A stretch of DNA of 64,000 nt from Pseudooceanicola onchidii (GTDB lineage: Bacteria > Pseudomonadota > Alphaproteobacteria > Rhodobacterales > Rhodobacteraceae): positions 62,001-126,000 of the forward strand of contig NZ_SPUW01000002.1 of the NCBI RefSeq assembly GCF_004959925.1. Direction: 5' to 3'. The position numbers and the translations under genes are program-made. Shown here piece after piece: positions 99 through 29,895 of this stretch. Within the stretch, counting starts at the first letter, position 1. Each line of letters opens with the position of its first letter. Under the pieces are notes generated by a model, which saw only the letters and a list, made by a program, of their open reading frames with translations, was not told where the DNA came from and ran no database searches.

Positions 99-518
99 CT
101 AATCGCTGCCTGGGGATCGCTCGAGGCCGCTCGCAGTCAGAGCCTTCCGGACACGCCGAGCCTCCGACAGCCGTTTATGCGCAGAAATGGAATCCAGAGA
201 AGCGAAGAAGCCGTGAACATGTTTCCCTTCCGGAAGGATGCGCCACCCCAAGGCCTCCAGCGCCTTCTCAAGGTCATGGCGAGCCTCTCTCCGGACTTCT
301 CGGGCTTCGCAGGAGGGCTCCACATGTGCGATGTCGAAGTCCTCGCACGAATAGTGCCGCTGGATCTCTACCCACCGCACTCTGCCGGGGCGCTCGACAT
401 CATACCAGCTGAGCACAGCGACGACATCCACCCGAAGCTGGGCGGCCGCCTTTGTCGTCCGCGCCATTTGCTCTTCCATCGACAGTTCGGGGCCCGAGTG
501 ATCTTTATCTTGCGGCAT
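99..518 (-). CDS. Unknown small protein, fifth gene of the Tn7-like operon
   Basis: This 139-residue soluble protein is not recognised. It overlaps the end of tniQ by 14 bp, so it is very probably co-translated with the transposition genes. It has a polar N-terminus, a central stretch rich in Trp/Tyr/His (about residues 38-60), and a strongly charged helical C-terminal half with many Arg/Glu. There is no signal peptide or membrane segment. In Tn7 the gene after the TniQ-family gene encodes a target-choice protein (TnsE, about 540 residues). This one is far smaller and shows no resemblance by eye, so only the position is suggestive. It could be an accessory targeting factor, a regulator, or the first cargo gene. 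Confidence 0.6.
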   Translation of the reverse strand: MPQDKDHSGPELSMEEQMARTTKAAAQLRVDVVAVLSWYDVERPGRVRWVEIQRHYSCEDFDIAHVEPSCEAREVRREARHDLEKALEALGWRILPEGKHVHGFFASLDSISAHKRLSEARRVRKALTASGLERSPGSD

Positions 519-2304
519 GTTCCAGCCTTTCGCCTACGTGCATGAGACGCGCGAAATGGGCGACGGAGAGCAGATGACCTCTCGCCGTTTTTCCGACGGT
601 TTTCGCACCAACCGGTGAAATGCCCCGTCCGGCGAGGCGCGAGATGAGAGCCCGGGATGTCGTTTGGCACTGTTCAGCAACATCCGCGAGCACGAGGTAT
701 TTCTGCTGGAACTGCGCGAGATCCTCTGGGGCGATCAGCCACGCATCAGCGCCGCCTACGCGACCTTGAGTAGACGGAAGTAGTCCCGCCGCGCACCAAT
801 GCGTAACACATTCCGGCCTCCAGCCTGTTATCTTCGCGACTTCTCCCGCAGTCATTGCGCTCGGTGCGCCTTGTGCAGCCAGCAGGTCCGAGATCTCCTT
901 TTCGGAGAACAGCGCATCGCCAAGACGCTGTCCGCTGTCGAAGTGGCGCGCATGGATAGTCCCTGATTTGATCGCCCGGAACACCGCCAGAAGTGCCTTT
1001 TTGTCAGTGGTCCTTCGTAGAGTCAGGTCGCGAAAGGCAATCGTCGGTTCTTCGATGTCCCAGGTCGGAGCCAGATTCTTTCGGATCACGAAAACCCTCC
1101 GGGTCAGGTCGTCCCGATCGAAGCCCCCCGCGACGCATGGATGACGAACATTGACATCGACCGCTGCCACGACATGCGCCTCGAGAAGCAGTTCGAACTG
1201 CTTTCGACCTACCCCCAGAAACTCGCGAGCCCGCGTCTTGTCGAGCATTTGCGACCGCAAGATGCGAGTGGCCTCGATATCCGAGCGCGCGACTATCGTG
1301 TGGACATGCCCAGTGCCGGATCGCGCCAACCGCCCGTTCATCTTGCCGGTCCTGACGGCATCGACAATCCGTTCCGCCCGGATACCCAACTTTTTTGCTC
1401 CTTCGGCTGCGCTCACCCATGCGCCTTCTCCGGAAGCGCCCGCCAACCGATACGCGTCCCCGCAGATAGCCCCAGCCATATGGAGGCAACGCTCTTGGAG
1501 AGCATCCGCGACGGATCCGGTCTGTTTCATCAGTCCTTGATACCAGGACCCCAGACGCGCCGCCGCCGTTTGCCCGTCCGCTTCCGGGGCATCCCAGAGG
1601 TCCTGCACATGACCATCGAATGCCGTCGGCCAGTCGAACAGCAGCGGTTCGACCGTGCCGATCATCTCGCGGGCTTCCGCTAAGGTTTTTGGAATACCGT
1701 CTTTTCCCGGCTTCCCGGTTCGCGTGGACCGCATCGCCGAAGCCAGGAACCACACCGTCCGTGCTACAGATCGGTCAGAGCCGCCCTCCAGGTCGAAACC
1801 GACGATATTTGCGGGGAGTCCCGCGATAGCACGAGAAATCTGGACTGCGCCGTCAGTCGCGAGGATCTGTGGAGCGTCAGCGTAGTGCGCTCCGCAAATG
1901 CAGCTCGCATGTCCGTCGTCCGTCACCCTCAGCGGGGACTCGCAGCCGGGGCAGGTCTCGAGCAGTTCTGTGCCGTGCACAGCGCATGCGGAAACAAGCG
2001 CGTGCCGCCATTCCTTGCGGCGCGGGCGACCCGCGGCGAGGCATGCCGGACAGACTGGGTCCGCGTGCATACGATGAAACCGCCAGTCCAATGCCGGGTC
2101 CGTCGGGCGGCTGCGCGGGAGGAGCGGTTCAAGGAGCTGGAACTCTACCCCCAGCGCCACAGCCAGGTTTTCTGCGTTTTCCACCAACGGCCGCCCATAA
2201 GGACAGCCAATGTCGGTAAGGAACCCGCCCAGGTCCGGATATCCCTCGGCATCGGAGAGACGCTTTAGAAATCCCAGGAAGCTTTCGTCGCGCTGGGGGA
2301 TCAT
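505..2304 (-). CDS. tniQ: TniQ/TnsD-family target-selection protein
   Basis: 599 residues. The N-terminal domain has the TniQ hallmark (DESFLGFLKRL near residue 7) followed by a zinc-binding region with Cys85-x2-Cys88, Cys107/His110, Cys118-x2-Cys121 and Cys135-x-Cys137. It should bind target DNA and recruit the TnsC ATPase. The length is closer to TnsD (about 500) than to the roughly 400-residue TniQ of CRISPR-associated elements. The C-terminal half (about 296-590) reads by eye as about five successive units, each helix, LG/TG turn, recognition helix, short wing and a closing D-L/D-I-type helix, around 296-345, 352-401, 424-476, 483-534 and 536-590. This resembles MerR/excisionase-type winged helices. 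It overlaps tnsC by 4 bp. Family call firm; the module count is my inference. Confidence 0.85.
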   Translation of the reverse strand: MIPQRDESFLGFLKRLSDAEGYPDLGGFLTDIGCPYGRPLVENAENLAVALGVEFQLLEPLLPRSRPTDPALDWRFHRMHADPVCPACLAAGRPRRKEWRHALVSACAVHGTELLETCPGCESPLRVTDDGHASCICGAHYADAPQILATDGAVQISRAIAGLPANIVGFDLEGGSDRSVARTVWFLASAMRSTRTGKPGKDGIPKTLAEAREMIGTVEPLLFDWPTAFDGHVQDLWDAPEADGQTAAARLGSWYQGLMKQTGSVADALQERCLHMAGAICGDAYRLAGASGEGAWVSAAEGAKKLGIRAERIVDAVRTGKMNGRLARSGTGHVHTIVARSDIEATRILRSQMLDKTRAREFLGVGRKQFELLLEAHVVAAVDVNVRHPCVAGGFDRDDLTRRVFVIRKNLAPTWDIEEPTIAFRDLTLRRTTDKKALLAVFRAIKSGTIHARHFDSGQRLGDALFSEKEISDLLAAQGAPSAMTAGEVAKITGWRPECVTHWCAAGLLPSTQGRVGGADAWLIAPEDLAQFQQKYLVLADVAEQCQTTSRALISRLAGRGISPVGAKTVGKTARGHLLSVAHFARLMHVGERLEHAAR

Positions 2305-3290
2305 GCCGCCGTGACCTCGTCTTCGGCATGCTGGAATACATGCAGTTCATTGGCGGAGTTCGGATTGGGCAAGCGAAGGCCCGCGTCCCGCATGACCATG
2401 GCATAAGATCTCGCCAGGACGGTGTCCTGTGGCACCTCGGGCCCGAAAATCGCCGGCATATCGGAAGACGTTTGGAGGCGCGTGGACGCTCCCTTTTGCA
2501 GGTCCTGACGCAACAACACTTCCAACGTGAGACGGCTCTTCAGGGCCGCTTCGATCAGCTCTACGACCAATCCGACCCGCCCCCCGGTCGCGGCATAGAG
2601 ACGCCGCGTCATATCGAGTGGATCGAATTCCAGCTCGATACCCACGTCCGCCAGATGGTCGAATATCGAGTAGGTCACCGCGACGAATTCTTGCCGGTCC
2701 TCTTGGTCTGACCACCGATAAGGCAACAGATAGATCGACGCCATCGAACGCGCCGAAAGCTGTTCATTCTGATCGATGAGCCTCTGAAATTTGGGCAAGC
2801 CTGTCAGGATCACGACGGCTCCGGATTGATCAATGACCGTCTTGATGTGATCCGCTGCGCCCCTCCTGGTGAGGTTTGCGCCTGGTTCGGCACAGTGGCT
2901 GCATTCGTCGAGCACGATATATTTGATACCGCGCTGATAAATGAGCTCCTGGACCCGATCCTGGAGCACCGCCAGCTTGGTGTTCGGAGCGACCCGCGCG
3001 CCCATCGCTCGGATGATCGCCGCATAGATTTCTGCGTCGTTTGGTTTCGGACGGATGAATCCTTGAATTAGATCCGGCGTCGGCAACATGTAACCCGGAC
3101 CAGCGCTTTCAGTGACCAGCTCATTGCAGATCGCCTCGACCAGATCTGTCTTGCCTACCCGCGTCGGTCCGAGCAACGGAATGCAAGTCCCGTGAACGCC
3201 CGCGAGCTTGATCGCGTCCCGCAGCGCAGCCATCGCGGCATCATACCGTGCATGGGAAATTCGAAGGTTCTTCAACGGTGCTTCGAGCAT
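2301..3290 (-). CDS. tnsC: TnsC/TniB-family AAA+ ATPase, transposition regulator
   Basis: 329 residues. Walker A is GPTRVGKT (residues 41-48) and Walker B is YIVLDECSH (about 124-132), the pattern of the TniB/TnsC AAA+ family. It should polymerise on target DNA in an ATP-dependent way and bridge the TniQ target complex with the TnsAB transposase. The length fits TniB (about 300) better than Tn7 TnsC (555), so the long TnsA-binding tail of Tn7 TnsC is reduced here. It starts 5 bp after tnsB and its stop overlaps the tniQ start by 4 bp, indicating one transcript with coupled translation. Confidence 0.9.
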   Translation of the reverse strand: MLEAPLKNLRISHARYDAAMAALRDAIKLAGVHGTCIPLLGPTRVGKTDLVEAICNELVTESAGPGYMLPTPDLIQGFIRPKPNDAEIYAAIIRAMGARVAPNTKLAVLQDRVQELIYQRGIKYIVLDECSHCAEPGANLTRRGAADHIKTVIDQSGAVVILTGLPKFQRLIDQNEQLSARSMASIYLLPYRWSDQEDRQEFVAVTYSIFDHLADVGIELEFDPLDMTRRLYAATGGRVGLVVELIEAALKSRLTLEVLLRQDLQKGASTRLQTSSDMPAIFGPEVPQDTVLARSYAMVMRDAGLRLPNPNSANELHVFQHAEDEVTAA

Positions 3291-3295
3291 GTGTG

Positions 3296-5227
3296 TCAGC
3301 CTCGCATTGTTATTTTGTTGCGTTTTGTGGGGATTTGGACCGGCAGCATCGCCACCGCCGGTTCGATGGGATTGTCCTGCACCACACGCGTTGAACTTTT
3401 CCGGACGATTTCCTTGTCCCTGTGGACCCGCCGCGCCTCTTCGCCGGCCTTTGCCATCTTCGACTTCTTCTTGCGGGGGGCGTGGTGCATGCCCTCGACA
3501 AGTGCTGCCAGCGCTTCATGCGCGGAGAAGTAGTCCTCCGGCTTTCGGCGGTTCGCCGCCAGAATGCGATCTCGTTCCGCCGCGGTCAGGGGTGGCATTT
3601 CGGGGTTCTTGCAAGGGACTGTAATGGCCTTGCCCGTATCGGGATGCACCACGATCACCGTTCGAATGTCCCCGGGGTTCGTCCAGACGTCCAGCTGGAC
3701 TGTATTCGGATTATTGCGGTGAATCTGTGCCAGGTCCCACGACCAGTATTGCACGCGGCCCACCTCAATGCCGTAATGGAACAGGCAACGCTTTTCGCGG
3801 ACACAATAGAACATCTGGATGAGCTCGTTCCGGCTCAGCGGCTCGGGCACATGTGCCAAGGTCAGAAGTCGCTTCCAGCTTTCGGTCGGCGACTCCGAAC
3901 GCCGGAGCGGCGACTGAACGCTGCGTCGAGGCAGCCTGCCATAAATATCGAAACGCCAGCGCTGAAGCATGCTCGCGAAGTCTTCGAAGGTCAGGCACGC
4001 CTCATCTATCGCCTTCGCCGTTCGTGTCTGGGCGGGCATCAACTGCGTCTGTGTTGTGCCAGGCAACGTAGTCACAAAGGTCTTCAACGTTCTCATCCCG
4101 CGTTCCACAAACGGCTTTTTCTCCGGATGACCGGGGATATTTTTCTGGAGTTCGACGCCCGTTACTTCCAGCAGCCGTTTTATGATTTCGCCGCCGTTCT
4201 CCGACCCCTGATCCGCCACAACCGTCAGCGGATTCCCTTTCACTCGAACGCGGTTTTGGATTCCATGGAGGTCGAAGAAGGCATCATCAGGCCCTGTCAT
4301 TGCCTCGAATAGCGCGGCTACGGTCGACGCACCGGTTGGCGGCGCGAGCGATACCACCTGACCGACGATAAAACCGGTTGCTGCATCGACCACGATCGTT
4401 ACCCAGGGCCGGACGAGGTTGCCTTCGTATACGACGAAAATATCCGCTTGAGTGGAGTCGATCTCCAGCCGGTCAAAAGCATAGTCGACCTTTTGAAACC
4501 TGCCTGCTTGTCGGAGCAACGGGCGTGCAGCTTTCGCTCCCATTCGAGACTTCAGAGCATCCTCGTGGACGACATAGTCGCGAATGATCGCTTCTACCGA
4601 TTTCCGTCCACATGCTTCGGGTTTGCGACCGTCCGAAATGCATTTTTTTGTGTATTTTTCGCGCGCTGTATTTGCCACGTAGGTGACAGTTACCGCATCC
4701 GACCTCAGGAAATGGTTTTCTATGACGTCGAGAACGATTTCCTCGAATAGTTCATCATGGCGCGGCTCAAAGTATCCTGAGTTGGCCGACCGCCCGTCCA
4801 CAAGACCGATGTGACCTTTCAGATGGACCCGCTTTCGCCAATTCTGGATCGTGCGGACTGCCGGCATCTCGGCCGCGTAAGATGCGAACCTCTCATCCAG
4901 TTTTAGTTGCTTCTGGGTTTGCTCGATAACCTGAGGCCATTTCATCCCCTCGGACTGGAAGCCTTCAACGAGCTCGAGGAGGCGTTTGCGATAAGACGCT
5001 TCGACCTTCTCCTCAGGGCTCAAGACACGCCCCTCAAATTCAGGTTCCTGGCCGTCGGACACGTCACCACGTGAAATCGCATCGTGGAACTCCTCCAGCG
5101 TGATCTCCGACTGATGACTGTCCAATTCAATGCAGACAGCAGGTCGACCGGAAACGCGCCCAATGACCCTGTAGATTTCGCCATCCAATCGCAGATGACG
5201 CCCGTCGACTTTCTGAACAACGGTCAT
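3296..5227 (-). CDS. tnsB: TnsB/TniA-family DDE transposase
   Basis: 643 residues. The retroviral-integrase-like core shows the catalytic triad: Asp257 (in LEIDST), Asp339 (in VADQGSENGG) and Glu375 (in FVERGM), followed by a Mu-transposase-type C-terminal beta-barrel region. The N-terminal about 230 residues contain helix-turn-helix-like segments expected to bind the transposon end repeats, such as RTIQNWRKRV near residue 125. It catalyses 3'-end cleavage and strand transfer. It overlaps tnsA by 4 bp (ATGA). Length and residues look intact, so the enzyme is likely functional. Confidence 0.93.
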   Translation of the reverse strand: MTVVQKVDGRHLRLDGEIYRVIGRVSGRPAVCIELDSHQSEITLEEFHDAISRGDVSDGQEPEFEGRVLSPEEKVEASYRKRLLELVEGFQSEGMKWPQVIEQTQKQLKLDERFASYAAEMPAVRTIQNWRKRVHLKGHIGLVDGRSANSGYFEPRHDELFEEIVLDVIENHFLRSDAVTVTYVANTAREKYTKKCISDGRKPEACGRKSVEAIIRDYVVHEDALKSRMGAKAARPLLRQAGRFQKVDYAFDRLEIDSTQADIFVVYEGNLVRPWVTIVVDAATGFIVGQVVSLAPPTGASTVAALFEAMTGPDDAFFDLHGIQNRVRVKGNPLTVVADQGSENGGEIIKRLLEVTGVELQKNIPGHPEKKPFVERGMRTLKTFVTTLPGTTQTQLMPAQTRTAKAIDEACLTFEDFASMLQRWRFDIYGRLPRRSVQSPLRRSESPTESWKRLLTLAHVPEPLSRNELIQMFYCVREKRCLFHYGIEVGRVQYWSWDLAQIHRNNPNTVQLDVWTNPGDIRTVIVVHPDTGKAITVPCKNPEMPPLTAAERDRILAANRRKPEDYFSAHEALAALVEGMHHAPRKKKSKMAKAGEEARRVHRDKEIVRKSSTRVVQDNPIEPAVAMLPVQIPTKRNKITMRG

Positions 5228-5931
5228 AGCGGAAGCACCTCAAGATGTGCGGTCGACCCCGCCGAAGGCATGAGGACGGTCCGGTCATTGAACGGTTTCT
5301 GATCCAGTGTTGCTGCCAAGTAGCCTTCGCGGATCGCGGTATAGACGCTGTTCCTGCTAAACCCGAGGTCTTCGATTTCTCGAAAAAGAAGACTGCTCGG
5401 GCAGTCATCGATCAGCCAAGAGCGCTGCTCAGCGCTCAGAGGAACTGTCGGCGACACTTTCAGAGTCCGGAGATTGCGCTGAAGCGGTCGCGGCAGCATG
5501 CCTTCGGTGACTATCGCATACCGGTGACCGTAGTCGGCCATCGCGATAGGAACTGCACTGAAAGTCGGATGCCGCTGGAGGAACCGGGTATGCTTGCTTT
5601 CGACGAAGACCTTTGAACCGTCGACGAGTTCCAACAGGAAATCCGGTGTATAGCACCAAGGCCTGTAGCGGGTTCCACGCACGGCATCCATGAGAGCCTG
5701 TTTCGAAGGGTAGGCGTCGCCAGTATTGAGATCGAACGTGCATGGCTGCGGACGGACGCGGCGCACCCGGGGATCGAGATCTGCCGCGATCAGGGTGATC
5801 GACTCGAGTTCACTCTCCGTGTCAACGATCCCGAAAGCTTTGCTGGAGGTCTGACGGTTAACCTTCTTTTGCAACCCTCTCCTGTAAATCGTGCGTGCTG
5901 GATCGTTGTATTTGTCGTCGTCGCCCATCAT
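5224..5931 (-). CDS. tnsA: TnsA-family endonuclease
   Basis: 235 residues. A restriction-endonuclease-like core is visible: acidic residues in TESELES (39-43), Asp97 in YTPDFLLEL, and Glu111-Ser-Lys113 in VFVESKH, matching the E...D...(Q/E)xK arrangement of TnsA. The C-terminal part has a winged-helix-like stretch (FREIEDLGFSRNSVYTAIREGYL, about 185-207). TnsA cuts the 5' ends so that the element moves by cut-and-paste. It is the first gene of the operon; the minus-strand TATATTAT-like stretch about 110 bp upstream could be its -10 element. Confidence 0.85.
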   Translation of the reverse strand: MMGDDDKYNDPARTIYRRGLQKKVNRQTSSKAFGIVDTESELESITLIAADLDPRVRRVRPQPCTFDLNTGDAYPSKQALMDAVRGTRYRPWCYTPDFLLELVDGSKVFVESKHTRFLQRHPTFSAVPIAMADYGHRYAIVTEGMLPRPLQRNLRTLKVSPTVPLSAEQRSWLIDDCPSSLLFREIEDLGFSRNSVYTAIREGYLAATLDQKPFNDRTVLMPSAGSTAHLEVLPL

Positions 5932-6124: not shown

Positions 6125-6154
6125 AATCACATAGCCCTATAGGGCTATGTGATT
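6125..6154. repeat. 30-bp perfect palindrome
   Basis: A perfect inverted repeat without spacer: each arm is AATCACATAGCCCTA or its complement. It sits about 10 bp inside the proposed transposon terminus. There is no strong T-run on either side (GATTTTCGG on the plus side), so a terminator role is possible but not typical. A site for a dimeric protein is also possible. Confidence 0.8.
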
Positions 6155-6447
6155 TTCGGTCGACAGATTTGCGGAATTGCCTGATTCTGTCTGAAAGACT
6201 CGGGTCAACCCTGAAAGGCGGCCGACAAGCCCGGGAATTCCCAGGACTCCAAGGTCGATGTGGCTCGACCGACGGCGAAATGCTATACTGATGCTGTCAA
6301 GCTACGCTTGACGATCGTTGTGCGTGTGGCAGAAGCGTTGGACTATGGAGCAGATTGTTCTGGGTTTCCCGGTGCCAGGCAGCTGGCATAAGCCACTGGA
6401 AGACCAAGGAGCCGAAGGCGGCAAGAGTAAGTAGTCCGCGGCAGTTA

Positions 6448-6663
6448 ATGAACGGGCGTCGGACCTGCTACAAAAACTCGATGGTGGAAGCGTTCTTCAA
6501 CACCATCAAATCGGAGCTGATCTGGCCGGTTGCATGGCAATCCCGCCAGCCGGCGGAAAACGTTATCGCCAGATACATCCACGTGCACCTCTCCCCCATC
6601 AGGCCACATTCCTTGCTCGGCTACCAGAGCCCTAACTCATTCGCGCGGAAGGCAAGGAAGTGA
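6448..6663 (+). pseudogene. IS3-family transposase (OrfB) C-terminal remnant
   Basis: The frame encodes CYKNSMVEAFFNTIKSELIW and then ARYIHV...RPHSLLGYQSP, the C-terminal hallmark of IS3-family OrfB integrases, including the Glu of the DDE triad in MVEAFF. The first two catalytic Asp residues, the helix-turn-helix OrfA and the terminal inverted repeats are not visible. The surrounding 6230-6440 has no recognisable transposase sequence. Only about 70 codons survive, so this is a dead fragment marking an older insertion next to the Tn7-like element. Confidence 0.8.
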
Positions 6664-25389: not shown

Positions 25390-27216
25390 TCAGAGACCCT
25401 GCAATAATTTCTTCAGGTGTTCTGCCACTTCTGCATCTCCTGGAAGAGCTTTCCCCAGCCCATGTCCACCTTTTAATCCTTTATCTGTGGCTGACTTGCG
25501 CACGGCTGAAAGGAGCTCTTTGCCTACATATGTGAACTCTCTGCCGCGCTCAGAAAGCTTAACTCGCGCTTCTGCCGGTCCCACATACTCAGCCTCGCCT
25601 TTTTGGTAGGCTGATATCTGTTTGACCACCTCTGTCCGTTTAGAGTTGAAGCGCTTTGCAGCATCCTTTGCGTCGAGCAGATCGCATGCGTCATTGATCA
25701 ACTCGCGGGCTTCCTCCGCAGACACAGCATACTCAAATGAAACTATGGCATCATTGATCCAGTATGACTCAATGTCTGAGCCATTTGTGAACCAGACCGC
25801 GATATCTTGATCGCTGTAAGGCTGCGCGAGAAGAGCTTGATCCTCTTGCAGCATGAAATCGCAATCTCTGTGGAGCACGATCTTCATTTTATTACCAAAC
25901 AACTGACGGAGGCCTGCGATGCTCGCTGCCGGAGGAAGGCTTGAGCTACCGCGGGCAGGCCAGATTGCGGTCTTCCGAAACAAGGTTGGCCACTGGCTGA
26001 GCAGCTTGTTCAACATGCCAACCTTATCATCCTCGGTTACCAACAGGATGCTCTTGTCCAGCAAGCCCCAACCCATGTCGCGCCGGATTTCATCAGTATT
26101 GTCGCTGGCAACCTTTCCTTGTTTCATCCAGATGAGCGTCGCATCCACCGTAAGAGCTCGAACGACACTGGGGCTGTGCGTAGTAAGCAGAACTTGGCAG
26201 TCATACTTGATGGCTGCCTCCATGAGAGCGAGAGTAAGTCGTTCTTGCACATCGGGATGAAGATGCGAATCCGGCTCATCGACCAAGAGAATCCGAGGTC
26301 GGAAATAAACCAAGTATGCAAATATCTGGATGACTTGTAGAAATCCGATACCGGCCAGTTTCAACGGCTTAAAGCGTTTGGGATCAGCAGCTTTCATCGC
26401 TTCCGTTTGAAACGCAGCATTTATTTTGTAGTCTTTTTCATCGTCGAAAGTGACTTGGAGGTTTAGAGGTCCCAAAACCCGGGATACAAGCGCCTCGACT
26501 TCTGCAAGGCTATCCCTTCCATGTGTCGACGCGGTTCCCTTGAGCAACTCCAATACATTCCTGAGAACCGTATTTGCGTCGCCTGCCGCTGCTTGGCGGT
26601 GGACAATCCTCTTGGACCGTTTTTCCTCCGACAATGGTATGCCCGCAAGTCCCGGAATGTAGGCCGAAATTTCCCGCTGCTGAGATCGTATTAGCGTCGT
26701 GATCAGATTGTTGGAGGGAACATGGACGCTGATACCTTCGTTTCGTGCGGACTTGATCCACATCGAACTTCCGATCGTCGGTGCCCCATCAATGCTTGCT
26801 TCGATTTCCAAATCCATTCTGGGAGCTGCGGCAAAGTTGCCACACTCGGTTGAATGAGAAGCATTTTTGTATTCTGGCGACGGCATGTATGTCGCTTCGA
26901 GTTCCGAAAGCGTTGAAGCCTCTGCATTTTTTGTCGCAGTTGCCGGGGATCGTGGCTCCACGCTGAGATTTCGACCACTCTGTAGCATCCAGTGAAGAGC
27001 TTGCAAGATAGAGCTCTTTCCGCTGCCATTGGTTCCCACAATGACCGTGAAATCCGACAACGGAATGGTGGTTTCCTCGATCGCCTTGAAGTTCTTGATC
27101 GTGGCTTTTGTCAGCTTCATGGCTCCGGAGCCCGAGCCAGATTTTTCGCCCGCGTTGCCAGATACATTGGCAACTTCATAAATCTGGTCGATTTCGGATG
27201 TAGCGTCGCCGCTCAT
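25390..27216 (-). CDS. OLD-family ATP-dependent nuclease (AAA ATPase plus TOPRIM-like)
   Basis: 608 residues. Walker A GTNGSGKSS is at 61-69, Walker B is ILLVDEPDSHLHPDV (about 305) and the H-loop is LLTTHSPSVV. The C-terminal half has ILLVTEDDK and IVLHRDCDF, fitting the Glu and D-x-D of an OLD-type TOPRIM nuclease domain. Relatives act in defence against phage or plasmids. No helicase partner (GajB-type) lies beside it, so it is closer to a stand-alone class 1 OLD protein. The first 32 residues are low-complexity (GEKSGSGSGA); Met33 (27120) is an alternative start. It is visibly richer in A/T than gyrB and the other neighbours, which suggests acquisition by transfer. Confidence 0.78.
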   Translation of the reverse strand: MSGDATSEIDQIYEVANVSGNAGEKSGSGSGAMKLTKATIKNFKAIEETTIPLSDFTVIVGTNGSGKSSILQALHWMLQSGRNLSVEPRSPATATKNAEASTLSELEATYMPSPEYKNASHSTECGNFAAAPRMDLEIEASIDGAPTIGSSMWIKSARNEGISVHVPSNNLITTLIRSQQREISAYIPGLAGIPLSEEKRSKRIVHRQAAAGDANTVLRNVLELLKGTASTHGRDSLAEVEALVSRVLGPLNLQVTFDDEKDYKINAAFQTEAMKAADPKRFKPLKLAGIGFLQVIQIFAYLVYFRPRILLVDEPDSHLHPDVQERLTLALMEAAIKYDCQVLLTTHSPSVVRALTVDATLIWMKQGKVASDNTDEIRRDMGWGLLDKSILLVTEDDKVGMLNKLLSQWPTLFRKTAIWPARGSSSLPPAASIAGLRQLFGNKMKIVLHRDCDFMLQEDQALLAQPYSDQDIAVWFTNGSDIESYWINDAIVSFEYAVSAEEARELINDACDLLDAKDAAKRFNSKRTEVVKQISAYQKGEAEYVGPAEARVKLSERGREFTYVGKELLSAVRKSATDKGLKGGHGLGKALPGDAEVAEHLKKLLQGL

Positions 27217-27377
27217 AGAAACATCTCGCTCGTGATATACTTCGACTTGTCAGTCGCTTTGCGCTGAATGGAAAATAGTTTTCAAAAGGCAATCTTCCCC
27301 TACTACAACATCTCTTTAGCCATCAGTCTTTCGCTGATGAATGCCGATGCCAACCAAGAACCTGCGTCTGCATACGG

Positions 27378-27433
27378 GCGCAACATTATGCGCAAATCGC
27401 GCAATCTTATGCTCACCGCGCACGATTATGCGC
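27378..27433. repeat. Three spaced 16-bp dyads beside gyrB
   Basis: Copies at 27378-27393, 27399-27414 and 27418-27433 share GCGCAnnnTTATGCGC (the middle one ends GCTC). Start-to-start spacings are 21 and 19 bp, about two helical turns. Each copy is an imperfect palindrome with GCGCA/TGCGC arms. They lie 15 bp beyond the gyrB stop and about 160 bp upstream of the OLD-family gene. Confidence 0.7.
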
Positions 27434-27447
27434 GATCCTACAAGGCC

Positions 27448-29895
<2,448 letters not shown>

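Follow-up and report, generated by a model that had tools for sequence, protein, structure and literature searches.

The window, a stretch of 64,000 nucleotides from a contig (called C2 here) of the marine bacterium Pseudooceanicola onchidii, carries a tnsA–tnsB–tnsC–tniQ element that extends from C2:61733 to C2:89442 (window position 27442) and measures 27,710 bases. Its features are listed below, with positions in the window unless C2 is given.

99 to 518, minus strand: orf139, an accessory gene and the last of the operon, overlapping the end of tniQ.
505 to 2304, minus strand: tniQ/tnsD-type target selector of 599 residues (ORF; Pfam TniQ and HTH_17 above cut-off; nine full-length relatives aligned, 34–83% identity).
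2301 to 3290, minus strand: tnsC, a TniB-type AAA ATPase (PF05621, E 3e-15, above cut-off).
3296 to 5227, minus strand: tnsB, a DDE transposase (IS481-type integrase core, E 7e-8, and Mu-transpos_C, E 7.5e-4, both below the curated cut-off).
5224 to 5931, minus strand: tnsA-like endonuclease (TnsA_like NF033179, E 6.9e-10, below the curated cut-off).
C2:61733, 268 bases ahead of the window start: left end of the element.
27377 to 27442, minus strand: right end of the element, with repeated TnsB-type sites and terminal TGTAGG.
27443 to 27447, no strand: 5-bp target duplication AGGCC, repeated at C2:61728-61732.
27448 to 29865, minus strand: gyrB, whose 3′ end is the attachment site (ORF; C-terminus).

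The element is Tn7-like in its genes, its ends and its position. It has tnsA, tnsB, tnsC and tniQ together (the TnsA- and TnsB-type matches being significant but below their curated cut-offs), TGT...ACA ends bearing arrays of transposase sites, a 5-bp duplication, and a fixed site beside a conserved gene that is entered in one orientation. Tn7 proper inserts at glmS, and an element at gyrB falls outside that definition. Both termini read TGTAGG in inverted orientation and are flanked by the AGGCC repeats; repeated motifs of the type GCGCATAACCGTGCGCG lie just left of the window, with inverted copies at 27377-27434. Five bases separate the gyrB stop codon from the right end, and gyrB stays whole. 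None of 10 cargo ORFs scanned against Pfam was named as a Cas protein. The cargo between 6818 and 21547 includes an IclR regulator, a fumarase-type lyase, parts of two ABC transporters, an aminotransferase and a beta-lactamase-fold protein, and a 608-residue AAA ATPase of the OLD/AriA kind, which many PADLOC defence models matched in part only, is encoded on the minus strand beside the right end (25390-27216). A perfect 30-base palindrome, AATCACATAGCCCTATAGGGCTATGTGATT, at 6125-6154, about 190 bases before the tnsA start, is a possible operator of the tns operon, and a short integrase-core (rve_3) fragment at 6355-6663 is likely the remains of an insertion sequence.

The preliminary description had reported the frame at 505-2304 as a TniQ protein with a string of winged-helix modules, and had given no strand; the ORF is real and runs on the minus strand from 2304 to 505, encoding a 599-residue TniQ/TnsD-type target selector, whereas translating the plus strand yields stops. 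The N-terminal domain that it had claimed is found by Pfam at residues 3-114 (TniQ, E 5.6e-9, above the curated cut-off), and HTH_17 matches residues 484-535 (E 8.5e-9, 36.0 bits in the whole protein, above the curated cut-off of 27). TnsD of 8v32 matched the N-terminal part of the protein. The combination of an N-terminal TniQ domain with a long C-terminal HTH array, the latter by prediction, is that of TnsD-type proteins. Among the relatives, one came from a scan of genome contigs (L004, Primorskyibacter flagellatus) and three distant ones came from plasmids, while one scan of viral contigs found no relative.

Structure prediction divides the C-terminal half into five units, and the protein is laid out as follows.

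1435 to 2304, minus strand: N-terminal half, residues 1-290, with the TniQ domain and its conserved Cys/His, then a helical region.
1249 to 1419, minus strand: module M1, residues 296-352, predicted winged helix.
1078 to 1248, minus strand: module M2, residues 353-409, predicted winged helix with a poorly defined wing (AlphaFold2; no significant family match).
871 to 1044, minus strand: module M3, residues 421-478, predicted winged-helix-like, the least regular (AlphaFold2; no family match).
700 to 855, minus strand: module M4, residues 484-535, HTH_17/excisionase winged helix.
511 to 699, minus strand: module M5, residues 536-598, predicted winged helix (AlphaFold2; no significant family match).

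The AlphaFold2 model of the full-length protein (10-row alignment, mean pLDDT 79.7, pTM 0.44) and that of the C-terminal half (13 rows, mean pLDDT 86.6, pTM 0.56) both show the same five (E)-H-H-(E-E)-H units, the placement of one module relative to another being uncertain at the latter pTM of 0.56. M2 has little wing strand and M3 carries a loop (LRRTTDKK) ahead of its long helix, so that both are less regular. M1 and M4 matched Xis, BldC and MerR proteins; the VIA-align rows cover mainly the N-terminal half, M1 and M4, and the missing rows for M2, M3 and M5 are no evidence for a new fold. These results agree with the five tandem units of MerR/excisionase-like plan that had been proposed by eye for residues 296-590, whose borders are close to those predicted here, and all ten peptides then quoted (RTGKM, EAHVV, KSGTI, AAGLLP, AGRGIS, SDIEAT, RDDLTR, EKEISDL, PEDLAQF and VAHFARL) are present in the 599-residue sequence.

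Similarity among the modules in sequence is weaker than this regularity of fold. HTH_17 scores 29.3 bits on M4 alone, which makes M4 the sole clear HTH_17/excisionase module by sequence; M1 reaches 13.1 bits here and 18.8 bits in the relative L033, below the cut-off of 27, and no match of this profile is listed for M2, M3 or M5, whose fold is predicted only. When the module profiles were compared by hhalign in local mode, three of the ten pairs exceeded the best of 18 usable control pairs (E 0.015), namely M1–M5 (E 0.0025), M1–M4 (0.0057) and M1–M2 (0.0067). The other seven did not exceed the controls, the probability was never above 12%, and global mode gave nothing, so the self-alignment that had been proposed as a check bears out the repeat for a minority of pairs, and weakly. 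The five-fold plan is thus drawn from predicted structure and alignment with relatives, with partial support from sequence. The seven dissimilar pairs would fit a C-terminal half that is one continuous, non-repetitive domain, modular in appearance only. We consider that reading scarcely credible, because both AlphaFold2 models show five repeated E-H-H-E-E-H-like units rather than a single continuous domain, and a natural exchange of DNA, described below, breaks at the M3/M4 border. UFL1, the best Foldseek match of the C-terminal model (E 2.2e-3, probability only 0.28), also speaks against it. UFL1 is a tandem winged-helix protein.

The exchange was seen when module identities were compared between gyrB-site elements. 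The TniQ of genome G544 is nearly identical to those of G605 and G554 in M4 (pairwise identity 0.91-0.94) and M5 (0.96-0.98), and far less similar in M1 (0.57-0.59), M2 (0.43), M3 (0.31-0.34) and residues 1-290 (0.44). At the DNA level, a stretch of 330 nt from the M4 start to the gene end is 94.5% identical between G544 and G605 and 90.3% between G544 and G554. With G605 the high identity continues for about 66 nt beyond the stop codon, and in the comparison with G554 it drops to roughly 0.3-0.65 on either side of the block. Judged by these alignments, this is an exchange of two whole modules, which indicates that modules can be traded, and it is the single outlier block of such kind among the full-length genes compared. 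Since G544, G605 and G554 all sit at gyrB, the exchange shows trading and not a change of target by trading. Of the suggestion that specificity changes by swapping modules, the swap is therefore plain in the DNA, while the target is gyrB in all three elements.

These data also bear on how many of the modules read DNA. M4 alone passes the family cut-off, with M1 the nearest of the rest, and M2 and M3 are the least conserved (mean pairwise identity 0.37 compared to 0.46-0.48 for M1, M4 and M5 in 10 aligned proteins), which would be expected if only one or two modules (M4, perhaps M1) read gyrB and the others were spacers or surfaces for TnsC, another TniQ copy or a host protein. Against this, the aligned length of all five modules is kept in three relatives at 17-25% identity in the C-terminal half, and the M4–M5 exchange left M1–M3 unexchanged. 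We regard a reader of one or two modules as a possibility to be taken seriously, albeit a tentative one.

An accessory partner was considered as well. The C-terminal half could serve as a platform on which a separate target selector docks, much as TnsF does on TniQ in Tn6022, and TniQ-partner systems of this kind are described in passages of PMC10293859. The gene orf139, which overlaps tniQ, is the candidate, and tblastn on the available loci found it in only three related elements (G000, which is the present one, G394 and G358). It was not found in the available loci of the other gyrB elements, and orf139 as a required partner was dropped on that result. Furthermore, a small TniQ without a large C-terminal extension is given as the hallmark of other-selector elements in a passage of Faure et al. 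(PMC10293859), whereas the TniQ here is long. Tn6022, at comM, shares with the present element a TniQ-dependent choice of site in a Tn7-like transposon, but as described in that source it has a short TniQ and a separate selector, where the presumed reader is fused to TniQ here. Docking of another selector is accordingly very improbable in our estimate.

We compared the gyrB site in 17 genomes chosen for a TniQ match. The element end lies at +5 after the gyrB stop in 13 of them and at +6 in one; the remaining three (G304, G401 and G938) have no gyrB-side end and weak TniQ matches only. In G465 the end is at gyrB (+5), yet the sole TniQ match is weak and on another contig. All 14 genomes have a different 5-mer between the gyrB stop and the element end, which argues for separate insertions. 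An identical 5-mer was found at both ends in six of the 14 family elements (G000, G358, G502, G643, G470 and G447), and four of the five duplication bases match between the ends in G394. No matching duplication was found within the stretches fetched for the other seven (G605, G544, G554, G629, G298, G465 and G073), for several of which the distal end may fall outside the stretch. Of the 13 family genomes whose TniQ match is strong, 12 have tniQ downstream of gyrB and on the same strand. The exception, G073, has a decayed tniQ on the strand opposite gyrB and beyond a second pair of ends, so that the copy touching gyrB has no tniQ of its own. The role like that of TnsD at glmS, as claimed before, is supported by the insertion of the element at a set position, 5 bp behind the gyrB stop, and by relatives that repeat the site with different flanking 5-mers.

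Some of these loci hold further ends. In G358, G643 and G470 another TGTAGG end follows directly after the distal 5-mer, with a one-base overlap in G643 and G470, and G073 has two back-to-back ends with six bases between them. Second ends within 0-6 bases in these four genomes suggest that elements pile up at the gyrB site. The idea that distance is measured from gyrB, as read from the older ends in G643 and G470, was dropped, as the newer copy lies one base inside the older end, which is not decisive. The decayed tniQ regions and following genes of G298 (L039) and G470 (L038) are 97.8% identical over 1.8 kb while their gyrB 5-mers differ, which may reflect either two moves of a recent shared element or a single old insertion whose flank has changed.

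When the family genomes were searched without regard to TniQ for a gyrB end that has TGTAGG at +5, 13 of 169 gave a match; the reversed control gave no match. Eleven of these 13 were new genomes, and for 10 of the 11 (G047 being left out) no tns genes were found behind the end in the stretches covered, three of which were ended by the contig end and the others of which were 20–40 kb. Such ends (L142-L149 and others) are probably remnants or cut contigs, or have their genes further away; one of the new ends, in G134, has no clear TnsB-type repeats. Outside the class, a TniQ match lies 13–25 kb behind gyrB and on the same strand in all four of G1221, G1041, G1335 and G1246, with end-like sequences after the gyrB stop at +6, +3, +11 and +12, respectively. 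The three elements examined there gave no matching duplication, and for the TGTCGA end of G1221 none was found with a fitting end pattern; G1064, G1280 and G1232 have no end-like sequence behind gyrB. Tandem TniQ-like genes of 294 and 467 residues, the longer with about two modules by eye, lie behind gyrB in G1246 (L056/L075, contig C100).

The last 90 coding bases of gyrB were compared among 14 hosts. The stretch encoding LMGDxVEPRRxFI keeps its first and second codon positions with few exceptions, which is partly plain protein conservation, and ATG aside no third codon position is invariant, suggesting that exact DNA identity is not needed. The reader must then tolerate synonymous change, or the readers have diverged with their hosts. 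The stop codon and the 5 bp behind it vary from site to site, so recognition most likely falls within the coding end of gyrB. Taken together, our data make it very probable that this TniQ selects the target of a Tn7-like transposon in the manner of TnsD, with five winged helices that would read the gyrB 3′ end. In this mechanism the TniQ half would recruit TnsC and the TnsA–TnsB transposase, as expected from the family, while the five tandem MerR/excisionase-like winged helices would bind the last part of the gyrB coding sequence, in a manner that tolerates synonymous changes or co-varies with the host, perhaps with a division of labour among modules. Binding there would set the insertion at the observed position, 5 bp past the stop, and leave gyrB whole.

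Two of the genomes without a gyrB-side end carry elements at another gene, which from its C-terminal sequence we take to be nrdJ, a B12-type ribonucleotide reductase. Their ends were found by terminal TGT/ACA with a shared 5-mer, as repeat clusters gave none. In G304 (L091/L024) 20 nt separate the nrdJ stop from the element end, and TACAC stands at each end of the element; in G401 (L090/L094) the distance is 27 nt, the 5-mer at each end is CGTAC and the inverted termini match. G304 encodes a 612-residue TniQ on the plus strand behind its own frames that are tnsA-, tnsB- and tnsC-like by position and size, and in G401 the weak match sits in a 621-residue TniQ. The weak match of G304 lies in a second TniQ-like frame of 577 residues, at 87608-89341 on the minus strand of contig C9, where the contig ends. 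This frame lies immediately outside the left end of the nrdJ element and has a C-terminus similar to that of G039, so elements may also stack at nrdJ. With a cut-off of E 1e-20, matches to the G401 TniQ are common, occurring in 32 of 198 family genomes. Of 34 genomes searched, 31 have nrdJ and eight have a TniQ near it on one contig: in G304, G401, G071, G123 and G009 the TniQ is 14–29 kb downstream of nrdJ on the same strand, and in G097 (C17), G039 (C11) and G042 (C9) it is 157–621 bases behind nrdJ on the opposite strand, where the elements or their targeting may be turned around.

By hhalign, the similarity of the 621- and 612-residue TniQs to the gyrB group extends from the N-terminus to within M5 (probability 99.2, E 8.6e-20). 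The nrdJ-site relatives seem to keep the overall length and plan while the target changes, and the change looks like divergence within modules rather than a different number of modules. Relatives in other hosts (L057, L064 and L010) align with the gyrB group as well (E 1.3e-39), and L010, a five-module-like TniQ on a Pseudomonas putida plasmid, is not at gyrB, its record having no gyrB.

To our knowledge, gene-finding by TnsD-type proteins is known in detail for few elements. Tn7 inserts just past the 3′ end of an essential gene and makes a 5-bp duplication, both of which are also features of the gyrB element. Its TnsD shares with the present protein an N-terminal TniQ domain and a long C-terminal DNA-reading half, putative here, but its target is glmS, whereas here the site is gyrB, 5 bp from the stop, and five MerR/excisionase-like modules are predicted. 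MerR/BldC regulators and phage excisionases (HTH_17) have the fold of M1 and M4. They are mostly single domains acting as dimers or filaments, in contrast to the five unlike units in one chain here. Another known site is parE, a paralogue of gyrB. The parE-targeting TnsD of Tn7017, a type I-F3 CAST, likewise directs protein-guided insertion beside its gene according to a passage of PMC11406308, but that CAST has two TniQs at parE, and the likeness drawn here is one of site description. The same review lists, in the part concerned, glmS, parE, comM, yhiN and tRNA genes as sites, and states that the TniQ domain interacts with TnsC. According to passages of Faure et al. 2023 (PMC10293859), TniQ/TnsD proteins are modular and the C-termini of TnsD fold into multiple HTH domains; with multi-HTH C-termini and modular selectors already on record there, what is surprising here is the site, the type of module and the swap. 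The open-licence literature, by title and abstract opening and with supplements excluded, gave no report of gyrB or nrdJ as a Tn7-like site; a passage search of the main text of PMC8649781 returned no gyrB, and the passage of PMC12452197 concerned uses gyrB for phylogeny. The gyrB site therefore appears unreported in the literature searched, and mention elsewhere is possible.

The array probably evolves by divergence within modules, and at least once an M4–M5 pair has been exchanged. A fuller modular code can be imagined, in which each of five interchangeable winged helices would recognise one portion of a long coding sequence, chiefly through first and second codon positions, and elements would switch from one conserved 3′ gene end to another (gyrB, nrdJ and others) with five modules kept, by diverging or trading modules such as M4–M5; we hold this to be unlikely as a whole. 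In summary, a defined architecture, a gyrB +5 site that has been used many times, distant relatives at nrdJ +20 and +27 and a two-module swap make the encoding of target choice by winged-helix arrays directly testable, and protein-guided insertion at selected gene ends could be developed from the gyrB and nrdJ elements.
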